A stretch of DNA of 64,000 nt, from assembly GCF_900182605.1 (NCBI RefSeq), contig NZ_FXTB01000007.1, positions 62,001 through 126,000 of the forward strand. Reading direction: 5' to 3'. The notes beneath the pieces are model-generated. The model was not told where the DNA came from. It ran no database searches and saw nothing but the letters and a program-made list of their open reading frames with translations. Of this stretch, positions 3,568-64,000 are shown in pieces (position 1 is the stretch's first letter; every line of letters begins with the position of its first letter). The translations under genes and the position numbers were made by a program. The DNA is from Saccharicrinis carchari. GTDB lineage: Bacteria > Bacteroidota > Bacteroidia > Bacteroidales > Marinilabiliaceae.

Positions 3568-3591
3568 GGACAGAGTTCAATTTACACTCCC
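3568..3591 (+). repeat. Copy 1 of a 24-base motif shared with 59155-59178
   Basis: Reads GGACAGAGTTCA, A, TTTACACTCCC; the copy at 59155 differs by one base (A to G). Both copies directly follow a truncated coding sequence and both are downstream of a tRNA-Ser. Read on the other strand it begins GGGAGTGTAAA, which resembles the outer end of IS256-type insertion sequences. I infer a leftover IS end. Confidence 0.5.
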
Positions 3592-58332: not shown

Positions 58333-58420
<88 letters not shown>

Positions 58421-58427
58421 AAAAGAA

Positions 58428-58456
58428 AATGCCCGACAGTGTCGGGCATTTTTTGT
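58428..58456 (+). terminator. Terminator after tRNA-Ser(GGA)
   Basis: AATGCCCGACA, central G, TGTCGGGCATT then TTTT; allowing a small loop the stem has about 9 pairs. It begins 8 bases after the tRNA. Its right arm overlaps a larger inverted repeat (58446-58508). Confidence 0.85.
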
Positions 58457-58508
58457 ATCCCCACGTGCCGGCAGCTTGCTGGCGTAAACGGAAGGATACA
58501 AAAAATGC
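58446..58508. repeat. 15-base perfect inverted repeat between the two att copies
   Basis: GCATTTTTTGTATCC (58446-58460) and GGATACAAAAAATGC (58494-58508) are exact complements, 33 bases apart; the interior is GC-rich and contains CAGCTTGCTG. It would form a long hairpin that competes with the terminator immediately before it. Confidence 0.65.
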
Positions 58509-58570
58509 CACAAACTTTGTTTGTTTCATTTTCATGCTTGTACAGGAATCCCACTTAGGGATCATGAAAT

Positions 58571-58587
58571 AATCCCCCTCTCTCCGC
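58571..58587 (+). repeat. Attachment-type direct repeat, downstream copy
   Basis: AATCCCCCTCTCTCCGC again, 167 bases after the copy in the tRNA. It lies between the tRNA and the integrase remnant, the usual place of an att site next to int. Confidence 0.7.
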
Positions 58588-58849: not shown

Positions 58850-59150
58850 ATGATGATTATGAGAAGTACATTTAATGTTCTTTTTTTCCTAAAAAAGAAT
58901 GCAAAAAAGAAGGATGGAACAGCACCTATCGTGGCCAGAATTACCATTAATGGAAAAAACAGTCAATTCAACACCAAACAATTTATCACAAAAGATATCT
59001 GGAATGTTGAATTAAACAGAGTTAAAGGGTGGAATGCCGAAGCAAAAAAAATTAATGGTGTTTTGGATGAAATTAAATCTTCCCTCCGCAACCACTACAA
59101 TGATTAAAAACGTAAAGAAACGATTATTACAGCCGAAAAAGTAAAATAAA
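58850..59150 (+). pseudogene. Truncated tyrosine integrase (N-terminal arm-binding part)
   Basis: 85 open codons that match the start of Bacteroidota tyrosine integrases: FNVLFFLKKNAKKKDGTAPI, ARITINGKNSQFNTKQFITKDIWN and WNAEAKKINGVLDEIKSSLRNHY. Reading on past the TAA (59105-59107) gives KRKETIITAEKVK, the normal continuation of this domain, before another stop where the 59155 motif begins. The core-binding and catalytic domains (R-H-R-Y) are absent; an intact protein has about 400 residues. It is clearly a fragment of an element that used the adjacent tRNA-Ser. Confidence 0.8.
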
Positions 59151-59154
59151 CATC

Positions 59155-59178
59155 GGACAGAGTTCAGTTTACACTCCC
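59155..59178 (+). repeat. Copy 2 of the 24-base motif shared with 3568-3591
   Basis: GGACAGAGTTCA, G, TTTACACTCCC, one base different from copy 1, with similar flank (ACATAT against ACCTAT) on the right. It starts where the integrase reading frame breaks off. Probably the end of a lost insertion sequence. Confidence 0.5.
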
Positions 59179-59224: not shown

Positions 59225-62200
59225 TTACAATGGTTTGTTGGGAGCATTTAGTTTCACAAACTTTATTTCGGGCAGCACAATTTTTATTTCTTTTTCCGAA
59301 TCTTCTTTTTGCCAATAAACGATATAGTTCACATTTCCCTGGGCAAGCTGATAGCTTTTTTGTTGGTAGCGCTTTATCTCCTCTTTAAAACAAGCCGCGT
59401 ATTTAAGCACACAATTACCCGAAGCATCATAACAGCCTTCCTCATCCACGGTAAGCGCATCGCCGCTTTTAAGGGTATGTACAAATTTTTGGCGGTAGAT
59501 AAAATAATCGAGCCAGATGTGTTTATGTGTAAGCTGCACCACGAGTACGCTTGTTGCAGGATAAGCTACCTCATCGTTTATCCGGTTTATTCCGGAACAG
59601 GAAATATCGTCGAGGTAGTTACCGTTTAAATGTATTATCAGGTTTTCTTTGGCTCTGGTCATACCCACATAGAGCTCCCGCTTTTTGGCATCGGTATCGG
59701 GATGGATGCCGTTGAGCATCATAAACACATTATCGAACTCTTTACCCTTAGCCTTATGAATAGTGGAAACAAAAATGGTTTCACCGCGGGCACTCATAAA
59801 ATCCTCGAGCTTCGATTCCCGGACAAAAACCTCAAAGTCGGATTGGTATTTCTTCTTCGGATTACTTAATTCAAAATCCTTAATCAGATTTATGCAGATA
59901 TCTATTTTCGTACTTCCTTTGTACATGTTCCAGAGCTTACGTTTGGCGGCCTTCCAGTTTTCTTCGGAAATGGTGTACTTGTCGGCCGTAAAATCCAGCG
60001 CCCGGATAAAACAACGTACTTCGAGCAGGTTATACAAGCTAAAACCCTCATTGCTTTGTATGAGCCTGGCAGGCGTACCATAATGCAGCAGGAGCCCTGT
60101 TATTTGTTCGGCTTCGGCATTGGTATGCGTCAGCACGCAACTTGTTCCGCTAAGGGTGGCCGATAAAACACTTTGCACCACAGGTTCAATCAGGTTAGCC
60201 CCGGCATGTTTAACTATACTGAGCAAGCCAGTGTCCCGCGTTTGGGGTACGATGGGTATTGCTTTGAGGCGATGGGTAATTTTTTGAACAAACTGGTTTG
60301 TAAACTCAATCAAATTAGCCTTGCTGCGGTAATTTTCAACCAATTCCACTTTTTTCGCTTTCTGATGGGCGATAAACTGTTCGAGGTACCGGGCACTTGC
60401 CCCCCTGAACTCGTATATGTTCTGGTCGTCGTCGCCAACAGCTATCACCCGCATTTCTTCGTTGTGCTCCATCAGGGCTTTTATCAACTCAAACTCGTGC
60501 ATGTCCATATCCTGCGCCTCATCAACCACAAGCACTGCTTTGCTTATCCGGTTTGGCTCTATATCCTTATTGCGGATTTTTTCTACTGTGTTGCGGATGA
60601 TGGTTGACGACTTTTCGATGGAACCCACCTTGCCCAGCACATCGAAACAGTAGGCATGAAAAGTTTTAATTTCGATATAAGCGGCGGCATTGCCGATTAA
60701 TTGAAACAAGCGTTTTTTGAATTCGGTGGCTGCCGCCCTGGAAAAAGTGACCATCAGCAATTGTTCGTGCTTTACATCTTCCATCAGCAATAAGGAGGCA
60801 AGCTTATGCACCAGCACCCTTGTTTTGCCACTTCCGGGTCCCGCGGCCACAGCCATATAAGGCGAGCTTTTATCTTTAATAATGCCCAACTGGGCAGGCG
60901 ACAGCTCGCCGAATAGTTGCCTGAATTTGGACGGTGTGATGTTTCTTTTTATCTCGTCCTGCCTGCTCCCTTTAAAATACTTGTTCAGGAAAGATGCATA
61001 ATTAAGCTGAAAATAATCCTCAACAAATTGCAAAGCCTCCCTGTAATCGCTAATCATCTTTTTAGCGTATTCGCCTACGATATGAATCTGCTGTACCTTA
61101 TTTTCGTAATAATGATTTAACTTTCTGTAATCATCTACTTTATACCTTATTTTATTGTCCGCTTCGAGTCGCTCAATGGTTAAGGAATTGTACACCACCA
61201 AAAAACCGCCCTCAATTTTCAGGGCATCAATGCGCGAAAGATAAAACAGGGCATCTTCCACCTCGTCCAGGGAAATCCGGAGCTTAAATAAAGCATGCTG
61301 ATTTTCATATTCCTTTTTCAGCTCATGAACCGAAAAGGCCACCAAGACCTGTTGCGGGCTCGTGGTGGTATCGGAAGGACTCTCATTGCTTTTAGCGTAA
61401 AGGTAATCGACGATAAATCGGGCCAGTGCATGCCTTTTTTCCAGTTTCTGTTGTAATTCGGATTTTGAAAAGTTCGATAAAAGGGTCAGGTGGTTCCTTG
61501 AAAAATTGTGCTGTATACGCTTCAGCCAGTTTTTAATCGACCAAAAATTGATAATCGTTTTTATTTTATTGAGCGATACATCGGTACAGCCGTTTTCCAC
61601 GGCCTTCTCGTTCAGTTGCTTAAGGTTAAAAGCTTTTTCTTTCTGATCCAGTTGCATTACCAGGAACTGTTCTATTTTACCCATGGTAGTAACGATATGC
61701 AAGGAGCGGTTTCTGTTGTCGCTTCGATGAATAAAGGCGGTTAAATCTTTGGTATCGGCCAGTATATTTTCGGCACGCAACAAATTAATCACATTAATCA
61801 CTTCCTCTTTCACGATGCCTAAGTGGTCGGATATGTAATCCACCCTCGATTCGGCCACCTCCCCATCGGCGGCTTGCTTTCCGCTTTTGCTCGAAAACAG
61901 TTTTTTAATAATCCGGACAGCCTGTTCCCTCTGCCTTCCGGTAAACATTTCGGACCGGTTAATTTTCTGAATAGCCTCACTGGCACTTTTCGACAGGATG
62001 CTGTTAGCAAAAATTCTGGGCATATTCTGTCCCCGCTTCAGGTAGCCCGCCTCTTCGAGTGCGGAGATCGCTGTTGTTACCCTTGTTTCCATCTCCAGCA
62101 CATTGTCATCCCATCCGGCTTTGCGCGCAATCTCCAATGCCGAATTAGATACCCACTGCCTAAAACGGGTAAGGTCTTTAATTGCTTTCCAAATCTGCTG

Positions 62201-64000
62201 TATCTCTTTGATATTTAATTTGGTTTGATTCAGCAAAATAAAATGCTTGCTCAAATCCTCCTCGTTAAAAAGCACATAGCAATCGGCGGTGATGTGCTCA
62301 TCGCGGCCTGCCCGGCCCGCTTCCTGCACATAATTTTCGAGCGAGTCCGACAGTTCGAAATAAATCACCATGCCCACATCCTTTTTGTCCACGCCCATCC
62401 CAAAAGCCGATGTGGCCACCATCACGTCCACATTGCCACGAATAAAAGCATCCTGATTGTCCGATTTTTCCTGCTTATTCATTTTGCCATGGTAGGGCCG
62501 CGCCAAGTACCCATCGTTAGTCAGCCTTTCGGCTATTTGATAAGCTCTTCGGGTACGTGAAACATAGATAATGGTGGGGCATCTTTTGCCGTCGAGTAAC
62601 AGGCGTAAGGTATCGTACTTTTCTTCGTCGCTTTCCTTCGGAATCACCTGAAAACTCAGGTTGGGACGCGATACCTTTGCACTAAAGGTTTCAAACCTCA
62701 GGTTTAGTTTGTTGTAAAAATAATCCTTGATGTCCTGAATAACATTTTGCTTGGCAGTGGCCGTAAAGCAGGAAACAGGGATGCCGCTCTCCAGGTTTTT
62801 CTTCTCCTGCAACATCCCAATAAAGTCGCCGATATACAGGTAATCCACTCTAAAATCCTGCCCCCAGGCCGAAAAGCAATGTGCCTCGTCAATGACAAAG
62901 CGCACGATATTTCTACCGAGCAACAGGTGCTCGATCGACCGCGACCGGAGCGATTCGGGCGAAATATACAGGATGGAGGCAGCGCCGTTTTGGACCCGCT
63001 CGAAAGATTTAGCCCTTTCAATGGGATCCAGCAAGCCATTGATGGTAACCGCATCGGTAATATTTGCATTTTCCAGGTTATCTACCTGGTCTTTCATCAA
63101 CGACTGCAGCGGTGATATCACCACGGTGAGGCCTTTAACGCTCTCGCCGCTCATTAGTGCCGGCACCTGAAAGGTAACGGACTTACCCCCTCCGGTAGGA
63201 AAAACCGCCAACACCGACTTATTGGCAATGGCCGCCTTTACTGCCTGCTCCTGCAAGGCCACGCCATTATATCTTCTGTAAGCATCGAACCCGAAATACT
63301 TTTTTAAAGCCAGGTTGGCATCGAGCTTTTGCTTGCAATAGGCACAACCTTGCAGGCAAGGGTTGTTGCGCAGCAAAAACATGACCCTTTCCACTTCAGG
63401 ATAATTTTTAACAACCCACGGAGGTGTTAGCGAATACCTGCTGTTGGTATTGATTAAAGCCAGGCAATACGCCAGTGCAACGGGGGCATCCCGAACTATT
63501 TTTTTCAAATCCACATGCCGGCAAATACGCTGGTCAAAGTATTTGTGCGTCAGGCGGTATAAATCAGTGTTGAAAAGGGAATAACCCACGAAAGCAAAAA
63601 AGGCCGAAAACTCCTTTTTGTCTGCCAGCAGCGCATAATACACTTGCTTTAGGTCTTCATCCGTAGTCCGGAATGCCTCCACCTCATCCATAAACAGCTC
63701 CCGGGCTTTTATAGCATCGTTCAGCGGGTTGTTCAACTCCTCTGTTTGTAGTTTATCGTCCTTTAACAAGGCATGGTATGGTTGGGCGGGAAATAAAAGC
63801 GGCGATAAAAACAAGGTGTCGATGGCCCGGAATGGCGGTAGTGGCCCACGAACAGCCTGCCGGATAAATGGCAGGTCGTGCTTAATAATATTATGGCCGC
63901 ACACATACTCCTTATCCTGAATAAACTGCATCAGCCCGGACACAGCGCCCGTGTGTAATGTTAATCCGTTTCCGCTTATACCACCGATATCACGAATCAG
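59225..64000 (-). CDS. Exonuclease-RecQ-UvrD fusion helicase (5' end outside the window)
   Basis: At least 1591 residues; the frame is open to the right edge, so the true start is outside. Numbering from the GTG at 63943: DEDD exonuclease remainder at about 1-95 (N18 and D23 in GHNIIKHDLPF, D76 in PLNDAIKA), a cysteine knuckle CLQGCAYC (196-203), a RecQ helicase with FPTGGGKS (248-255), IDEAHCFSAWGQDF (351 on) and EAGRAGRDEH, a winged-helix and linker region (about 590-990), then a UvrD/Rep helicase with AAGPGSGKTR (about 1035), DEAQD (about 1141), GDDDQNIYEFRGA and STIHKAKGKEFD (about 1400). All ATPase motifs look intact. Two helicases of opposite superfamilies plus a nuclease in one chain suggest DNA repair or defence. 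Confidence 0.88.
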   Translation of the reverse strand: MIRDIGGISGNGLTLHTGAVSGLMQFIQDKEYVCGHNIIKHDLPFIRQAVRGPLPPFRAIDTLFLSPLLFPAQPYHALLKDDKLQTEELNNPLNDAIKARELFMDEVEAFRTTDEDLKQVYYALLADKKEFSAFFAFVGYSLFNTDLYRLTHKYFDQRICRHVDLKKIVRDAPVALAYCLALINTNSRYSLTPPWVVKNYPEVERVMFLLRNNPCLQGCAYCKQKLDANLALKKYFGFDAYRRYNGVALQEQAVKAAIANKSVLAVFPTGGGKSVTFQVPALMSGESVKGLTVVISPLQSLMKDQVDNLENANITDAVTINGLLDPIERAKSFERVQNGAASILYISPESLRSRSIEHLLLGRNIVRFVIDEAHCFSAWGQDFRVDYLYIGDFIGMLQEKKNLESGIPVSCFTATAKQNVIQDIKDYFYNKLNLRFETFSAKVSRPNLSFQVIPKESDEEKYDTLRLLLDGKRCPTIIYVSRTRRAYQIAERLTNDGYLARPYHGKMNKQEKSDNQDAFIRGNVDVMVATSAFGMGVDKKDVGMVIYFELSDSLENYVQEAGRAGRDEHITADCYVLFNEEDLSKHFILLNQTKLNIKEIQQIWKAIKDLTRFRQWVSNSALEIARKAGWDDNVLEMETRVTTAISALEEAGYLKRGQNMPRIFANSILSKSASEAIQKINRSEMFTGRQREQAVRIIKKLFSSKSGKQAADGEVAESRVDYISDHLGIVKEEVINVINLLRAENILADTKDLTAFIHRSDNRNRSLHIVTTMGKIEQFLVMQLDQKEKAFNLKQLNEKAVENGCTDVSLNKIKTIINFWSIKNWLKRIQHNFSRNHLTLLSNFSKSELQQKLEKRHALARFIVDYLYAKSNESPSDTTTSPQQVLVAFSVHELKKEYENQHALFKLRISLDEVEDALFYLSRIDALKIEGGFLVVYNSLTIERLEADNKIRYKVDDYRKLNHYYENKVQQIHIVGEYAKKMISDYREALQFVEDYFQLNYASFLNKYFKGSRQDEIKRNITPSKFRQLFGELSPAQLGIIKDKSSPYMAVAAGPGSGKTRVLVHKLASLLLMEDVKHEQLLMVTFSRAAATEFKKRLFQLIGNAAAYIEIKTFHAYCFDVLGKVGSIEKSSTIIRNTVEKIRNKDIEPNRISKAVLVVDEAQDMDMHEFELIKALMEHNEEMRVIAVGDDDQNIYEFRGASARYLEQFIAHQKAKKVELVENYRSKANLIEFTNQFVQKITHRLKAIPIVPQTRDTGLLSIVKHAGANLIEPVVQSVLSATLSGTSCVLTHTNAEAEQITGLLLHYGTPARLIQSNEGFSLYNLLEVRCFIRALDFTADKYTISEENWKAAKRKLWNMYKGSTKIDICINLIKDFELSNPKKKYQSDFEVFVRESKLEDFMSARGETIFVSTIHKAKGKEFDNVFMMLNGIHPDTDAKKRELYVGMTRAKENLIIHLNGNYLDDISCSGINRINDEVAYPATSVLVVQLTHKHIWLDYFIYRQKFVHTLKSGDALTVDEEGCYDASGNCVLKYAACFKEEIKRYQQKSYQLAQGNVNYIVYWQKEDSEKEIKIVLPEIKFVKLNAPNKPL

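Follow-up and report, generated by a model that had tools for sequence, protein, structure and literature searches.

The gene at positions 59225-64000 (minus strand) of the DNA analysed here, a 64,000-nucleotide stretch of the Saccharicrinis carchari genome (the window), encodes a helicase-nuclease variant that joins an exonuclease, a RecQ helicase and a UvrD helicase in one chain and has an unusual, strictly conserved exonuclease site. The fusion appears to be mobile and horizontally transferred, and is not a core gene. Our preferred interpretation, which we regard as probable though well short of secure, is that it is a helicase-nuclease of defence islands that spreads horizontally on mobile DNA. 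Its gene neighbours suggest an anti-phage activity.

The frame is open to the window's right edge, and the start codon lies outside, at an ATG 48 nt or a GTG 72 nt past that edge in the assembly contig. The ATG matches the start of 52 of 74 aligned homologues in its own alignment column. The product comprises 1607 aa from the ATG and 1615 aa from the GTG; residue numbers below are counted from the GTG. The alignment contains the full-length sequences of 74 of 81 loci, the window's own included, and leaves out two loci with a broken frame (L042, L044) and five with products shorter than 1500 aa, mostly at contig ends (L061, L085, L088, L092, L095).

Pfam matches on the fusion are all well over their cut-offs: DEAD (98.9 bits), Helicase_C (75.4), UvrD-helicase (110.1, cut-off 23) and UvrD_C (72.5, cut-off 25.6). 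Together with motifs, alignment and models they divide the minus-strand frame into an N-terminal DEDD-type exonuclease domain (residues 9-185, 63518-64000 within the window), a linker with four cysteines (63335-63523), an SF2 RecQ helicase core with intact motifs (residues 273-590, 62303-63256), a middle region (residues 591-1050, 60923-62302), an SF1 UvrD/PcrA-type helicase core with intact motifs (residues 1057-1482, 59627-60904) and a C-terminal beta-rich domain (residues 1483-1615, 59228-59626). The helicase motifs of both cores are conserved across the 74 aligned sequences. In sequence, the first core comes closest to solved helicases of the RecQ/BLM/WRN type and the second to PcrA/UvrD. 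AlphaFold2 models reached a mean pLDDT of 84.5 for the stretch of the L018 homologue matching residues 10-660 and of 78.2 for residues 620-1615 of the window protein. In Foldseek searches, PcrA (1pjr, E 4.6e-23) was the best match of the second model, and the best 50 matches of the N-terminal model were all RecQ-type helicases, so that this search is uninformative on the exonuclease domain. The C-terminal domain is modelled confidently except for its last residues and has no Pfam match; the middle region has weak, sub-cut-off winged-helix-like Pfam matches. The four cysteines of the linker (C184, C239, C243, C246), a possible Zn or Fe-S site, are invariant in all 74 sequences, absent from Nostoc and Calothrix relatives and mostly absent from an Aliarcobacter one.

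Tested against models of named families, the fusion belongs to broad groups and falls outside their canonical members. It scores 275.4 bits with the broad RecQ model TIGR00614 (cut-off 219.8) and 302.7 bits with the canonical bacterial RecQ model TIGR01389, far below the cut-off of 640.2, and Pfam finds neither an RQC nor an HRDC domain in it, the middle region included. Likewise, the UvrD-helicase and UvrD_C matches and the SF1 motifs place the second core among the UvrD/PcrA/Rep helicases in the broad sense, and its scores with pcrA (132.2 bits, cut-off 911.2) and uvrD (116 bits, cut-off 1144.45) set it apart from UvrD or PcrA proper.

The exonuclease domain is altered in a specific way. A first-pass annotation of the window had recognized the three-part chain, which the open frame, the Pfam matches and the motif conservation in the 74 sequences bear out, but it had called the exonuclease a remnant whose DxE motif lay beyond the edge. 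The motif is indeed just outside, intact, at 64019-64027, and the domain is therefore complete. All 74 full-length sequences, the window's own included, have D16, E18, D66 and D119. Motif II (GHNxxxHD) lies at 63875-63898, a conserved PYH loop at 63752-63781 and motif III (NNPLND) at 63716-63733, all on the minus strand. In DEDDh enzymes the residue five before the last Asp is His, the general base, and the host's three RNase_T proteins have His there; the corresponding residue of the fusion, N114, is Asn in 73 of the 74 sequences and Ser in one. The fusion thus has the four acids of the DEDDh exonucleases and lacks their His, and the earlier statement that all motifs are intact holds for the helicase motifs and the four acids and fails at motif III. 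The four acids and the Asn recur in seven distant plasmid relatives (27-48% identity) from Bacteroidota, Campylobacterota, Cyanobacteriota and Pseudomonadota, which also share an invariant His, residue 100 in the window protein. The predicted active site is, then, altered yet strictly conserved. The model topology, strand-strand-strand-helix-strand-helix-strand, follows the order expected of DEDD enzymes; its first strand bears D and E, and a late helix bears the last D. Profile similarity is weak: the RNase_T profile PF00929 has no match to the fusion at E 1, the best PDB profile match reaches only E 0.42, and hhalign against the host's three RNase_T proteins gives probability 42 and E 2.6e-4 over just 40 columns. 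For this reason the domain is named DEDD-type by motif and fold, and its activity is a prediction. Because the catalytic His is missing, digestion by this domain is uncertain.

The distribution of the fusion is patchy. Single matches of at least 1470 residues were found in 19 of 61 related genomes, the host's own included, and two more of the 61 (G054 and G026) hold fragments. Within the genus, six of nine genomes carry it, again counting the host's own. A phylum-wide census, run at E 1e-200 and therefore missing relatives near 30% identity, recovered it in 15 of 392 genomes and 12 of 179 genera, own included. All 19 carriers have further RecQ-type matches; in the host there are two, in frames of 656 and 756 aa. 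The homologue set used below consists of the best 80 of 106 confirmed relatives (L017-L096), or 81 loci with the window's own. Most are from Bacteroidota, and some records are named Bacillota, Planctomycetota, Chlorobiota, Fibrobacterota or Cloacimonadota; many of the non-Bacteroidota records are metagenome bins, in which mis-binning is possible, and one is flagged as contaminated. A quick tree of the homologues, in which some deep joins have long branches, intermixes families and phyla. In two of the 80 (L042, L044) the homologue is split into two open frames, as expected of a dispensable gene. The match at L068 covers 6.5 kb instead of 4.8 kb.

Relatives also occur on plasmids, where nine of 481 matching records reach at least 80% coverage, and in a viral-contig collection, where eight were found with an alignment query. 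A first scan of the viral contigs was empty, its patterns having been derived from one protein only. Six of the eight viral-contig ORFs measure 1577-1633 aa; that of L204 (974 aa) is cut by the contig end, and that of L210 (1463 aa) is without its N-terminus. These contigs may include host DNA. None of 50,697 phage records contains the fusion at 80% or more of its length.

Gene order speaks for mobility. Across the 19 fusion loci of the related genomes (236 ORFs), 167 of 171 pairs have no neighbour in common, compared with 34 of 153 pairs of canonical recQ loci in 18 of the same genomes (288 ORFs), where 65 pairs have three or more; some contigs end early, and the recQ set mixes paralogues (L131 is shorter), lacks G002 and leaves out L143 (G054). 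A fixed genomic place of the fusion was rejected on this lack of synteny and on the copy in G004 (C3:404335), which lies 1.06 Mb from that genome's tRNA-Ser site. The comparison also disposes of the fixed, syntenic place in all relatives that the first-pass annotation had named as the observation that would count against its own reading.

tRNA genes are concentrated close to the fusion. Over 80 loci, eight tRNAs lie in the 141 kb within 1 kb of it and nine in the remaining 967 kb, a 6.1-fold contrast (p 6e-4); cut-offs of 1.5, 2 and 3 kb give p values from 0.0016 to 0.0035. Overall, recQ loci are richer in tRNAs (12 in 364 kb, against 17 in 1490 kb for fusion loci), so the argument rests on the near-far contrast inside the fusion loci. 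Since recQ sits at a conserved place, its tRNA density was set aside; those tRNAs are probably co-inherited with recQ. PMC12458937 describes defence islands that encode YprA-type helicases and are carried by elements integrating at tRNA genes.

At the host locus, the fusion lies 804 bases from a tRNA-Ser(GGA) gene (58333-58420, plus strand) that borders a variable hotspot. Several details that the first-pass annotation had read from the letters were recovered by search: the tRNA at about 0.8 kb, a 17-base, att-like direct repeat of its 3' end (58571-58587, plus), an integrase remnant, which is a truncated tyrosine recombinase with an Arm-DNA-bind_5 domain only (58850-59107, plus; E 5e-13), and a repeat 46 bases from the gene. 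The last is a 44-bp dispersed repeat (59135-59178, unstranded) found by a genome repeat search, whose end is 46 bases from the fusion's stop codon; related copies of about 24-48 bp occur at nine genome places, this one and 3568-3591 included, and the repeat looks like an insertion-sequence end. A further copy is situated about 94 bases from where contig C4 ends. A right-hand att site was not found: with up to one mismatch, the 17-mer recurs only at two other tRNA-Ser genes. Directly after the tRNA-Ser, between the two att-like copies, is an extended, terminator-like inverted repeat (58430-58509), part of which matches itself on the minus strand.

The gene left of the tRNA-Ser is present in nine of nine genus genomes, each time with a tRNA-Ser beside it (GGA in eight, TGA in G001), and what lies past the tRNA mostly differs across the genus, in a comparison that covers only 2.4 kb of G006. 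G001 and G008 have two genes in common there (79-81% identity), and single distant matches (22-35%) connect G000 with G003 (HsdR), G004 with G007 and G001 with G003. The last of these involves a 404-aa ORF of G001, 28% identical to its G003 counterpart, which is taken from its N-terminus to be a tyrosine recombinase. At its tRNA-Ser site (C100, locus L202), G003 holds a different type I restriction-modification (R-M) system, with HsdM_N at C100:5980 and an HsdR-like protein 22% identical to the window's HsdR.

Extending the sequence to the right, as had been proposed, supplied the full N-terminus and brought a type I R-M operon into view. The plus-strand genes right of the window encode, in order, a HEPN protein, a 125-aa protein and a SecB-like protein; then follow on the minus strand HsdR, an ImmA/IrrE-type peptidase, a PD-(D/E)XK_3 protein, HsdS, HsdM and an HTH regulator, so that a complete type I R-M operon lies three genes from the fusion. 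The HEPN/125-aa/SecB-like cassette (L009:7577-8777, plus; window-equivalent 64577-65777) resembles toxin-antitoxin-chaperone modules, though with a HEPN protein. The peptidase and PD-(D/E)XK_3 genes sit between hsdS and hsdR (L009:12456-13879, minus).

Across the homologues, the fusion is repeatedly beside or near restriction and other defence genes, of different types. An HNH nuclease gene overlaps it by 4 nt at L032 and L049; a methyltransferase-HIT protein abuts it at L037, and L039 has a HIT protein from the same cluster; an AbiEii-type gene lies 38 nt upstream at L018, and a type IV restriction enzyme at most 52 nt downstream at L038. Viral contig L204 encodes on one strand an N6/N4 methylase (type III Mod), AbiV-HEPN, Res and the cut-off fusion. 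Sixteen of the 20 plasmid matches listed were examined in their regions (H6, H9, H11 and H20 being left out), two of them without annotation, and in four of the 16 a recognized defence system of several genes, or the key gene of one, lies no more than about 10 kb away. An Allochromatium plasmid has type I R-M and an HNH gene near the fusion; on a Scytonema plasmid DrmA-DrmB-DrmC are upstream on the same strand with two genes intervening; on a Pseudanabaena plasmid DruE is nearby and a CARF-WYL gene adjoins the fusion; and on a Thiothrix plasmid CRISPR type I-D genes and a ZorD/DpdE-like helicase are found near it. The other 12 regions have no known defence system by product name.

Matches to PADLOC defence families (E 1e-8, 137 ORFs per set) numbered 243 for the nearest neighbours (137 of 264 ORFs), 157 for ORFs at least 6 kb away (137 from 288) and 30 beside recQ (137 from 150), a conserved chromosomal locus used as control; since these tallies count families, several per protein, they are a contrast and not a rate. 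Detail was available for the best 25 families of each tally, and strong matches (BrxC, Jet, GajA) occur in the distal set as well. Many ordinary or housekeeping genes are among the best 25 of 172 Pfam families of the nearest neighbours. Type I R-M as a constant partner was rejected: in phmmer searches with the window's own proteins, HsdR-like and HsdM-like neighbours each occur at 3 of 81 loci, own included. Of 34 genomes, two have HsdM_N no more than 20 kb from the fusion: the host, and G093, in which it follows the fusion directly and on the same strand. With 72 HsdM_N matches in the 34 genomes, about 0.7 would be expected by chance, and no enrichment is shown for HsdM_N. The window's integrase family was likewise rejected as a constant companion, being within 20 kb of the fusion in one of 34 carrier genomes (the host's own), and even the commonest neighbour family is present at no more than 7 of the 81 loci. 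The proposed survey of homologue contexts thus gave a divided answer: tRNAs are enriched within 1 kb and defence families exceed those of recQ flanks, but there is no fixed defence partner and recQ loci are the richer in tRNAs overall.

Comparison with known systems places the fusion close to several of them and inside none. Gabija pairs the OLD-family nuclease GajA with the UvrD-like helicase GajB; like the fusion, it brings a nuclease and a UvrD-type helicase together in defence islands. The SF1 part is matched by GajB models, and GajB chains are among the Foldseek matches. The fusion differs in being one chain, in having a DEDD-type instead of an OLD/TOPRIM nuclease and in its added RecQ motor, and the nine right-hand neighbours scanned at the window locus include no GajA and no OLD/TOPRIM domain. 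RecBCD and AddAB likewise apply an SF1 motor and a nuclease to DNA ends, and RecB and AddA are among the Foldseek matches; the fusion, by contrast, has no PD-(D/E)XK domain in Pfam, its second motor is an SF2 RecQ, and it is sporadic rather than core. According to PMC12407980, Gabija acts on linear DNA devoid of RecBCD. Hachiman (HamAB), similarly a helicase-nuclease defence, is described in PMC12278908 as a complex that senses aberrant or damaged DNA; it consists of two proteins with one helicase and a nuclease of another family. The best reading is that the fusion would work like Gabija, Hachiman or RecBCD but stands outside them.

Similar domain combinations are found elsewhere. The RecQ core of WRN is among the sequence matches; motif III of the fusion differs in its Asn. 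WRN joins an N-terminal DEDD-superfamily exonuclease to RecQ, but is DEDDy, eukaryotic and without a UvrD part. Bacillus subtilis DinG fuses an N-terminal DEDD exonuclease to an XPD-like helicase (passages of PMC12525004). The helicase families of the fusion are different, and DinG has one motor only. The RecQ cores of DpdF (313 bits) and PsyrT (256 bits) score on the fusion much as TIGR01389 does (303 bits). RqlH and PsyrT are the same kind of protein. RqlH has a phosphoribosyltransferase domain, according to PMC4670107, and no such family is among the fusion's 12 Pfam matches at E 0.001. As for DpdF, the Pfam matches of the window's neighbours give no sign of Dpd genes. No description of an exonuclease-RecQ-UvrD fusion was found in searches of open-access papers, judged by titles, abstract beginnings and selected passages.

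How such a protein might act can be sketched from its parts. Both helicase families, RecQ and UvrD, translocate in the 3' to 5' direction, which is also the direction in which DEDD exonucleases digest DNA. Single-stranded DNA exposed where foreign DNA is broken, nicked or forked, such as the ends left by a nearby restriction enzyme, would let the two motors load and unwind 3'-5'; the 3' end released in this way would pass to the exonuclease, with destruction of phage or plasmid DNA that has been cut or is replicating. As there is no constant partner gene, the fusion is probably a stand-alone effector that cooperates with whichever endonuclease is nearby. A bolder version, which we offer as a speculation with the balance clearly against it, is a one-chain, two-motor "after-cut" shredder that would take ends from any co-resident restriction system (type I, III, IV, HNH or DISARM) and digest the DNA through a new DEDDn class of exonuclease. 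In this class Asn would stand in place of His, and the site would be completed by a distant invariant His, carried on a mobile loop, only when the motors feed DNA.

Other explanations have to be weighed against this defence role. The fusion could be an accessory DNA-repair or recombination enzyme, for damage tolerance or end resection, gained and lost horizontally and found in islands because accessory genes collect there. Repair is the general role of RecQ, UvrD and DEDD exonucleases, and the many ordinary neighbour genes and the lack of a fixed defence partner agree with such a role. It fits less well with an occurrence in only 15 of 392 genomes of the phylum, with flanks that match more defence families than those of recQ, with the operon-like adjacency to restriction genes at some loci and with carriers that all keep other RecQs, and we consider it unlikely. 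In its stronger form, a conserved repair protein of the phylum, as the first-pass annotation had offered for an alternative, it is contradicted by a presence in only 15 of 392 genomes. That annotation's leading idea, cargo of a mobile island, has fared well in view of the patchy occurrence, the absent synteny, the variable tRNA-Ser hotspot and the occurrence near tRNAs, on plasmids and on predicted viral contigs; the anti-phage role that it attached to this idea is favoured by the neighbours, and the exonuclease remnant had to be given up.

The altered site leaves room for an explanation in which the exonuclease domain is dead and would serve as a sensor of DNA ends or 3' termini, with the helicases doing the work by remodelling or toxicity. 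It would account for the Asn that takes the place of the general base in 73 of 74 sequences and in seven distant ones, and for the weak profile similarity to active exonucleases; a decayed site, on the other hand, would hardly keep its four metal-binding acids down to 27% identity, or the invariant His100 nearby in sequence, and we are inclined to doubt this explanation. Even less probable, in our estimate, is that the fusion helps mobile elements to replicate or persist, or acts in anti-restriction for its carrier element. It does adjoin parA/parB genes on an Aliarcobacter plasmid, shares its region with ssb and parA genes on a Bacteroides finegoldii plasmid and has large serine recombinases in its flank on viral contigs L203 and L205. 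A helper of this kind is at odds with the limit of seven loci for any neighbour family, with the single carrier genome in which the window's integrase family is near, and with the absence of the near-complete fusion from the phage records.

The plasmid annotations seen name the protein only "RecQ family ATP-dependent DNA helicase" or "ATP-dependent DNA helicase RecQ". If the fusion is a defence effector, as we favour, a family present in Bacteroidota, Bacillota (metagenome bins), Cyanobacteriota, Pseudomonadota and Campylobacterota would have been misfiled under repair. The combination of an altered exonuclease site with two 3'-5' motor families in one chain is directly testable with purified protein.
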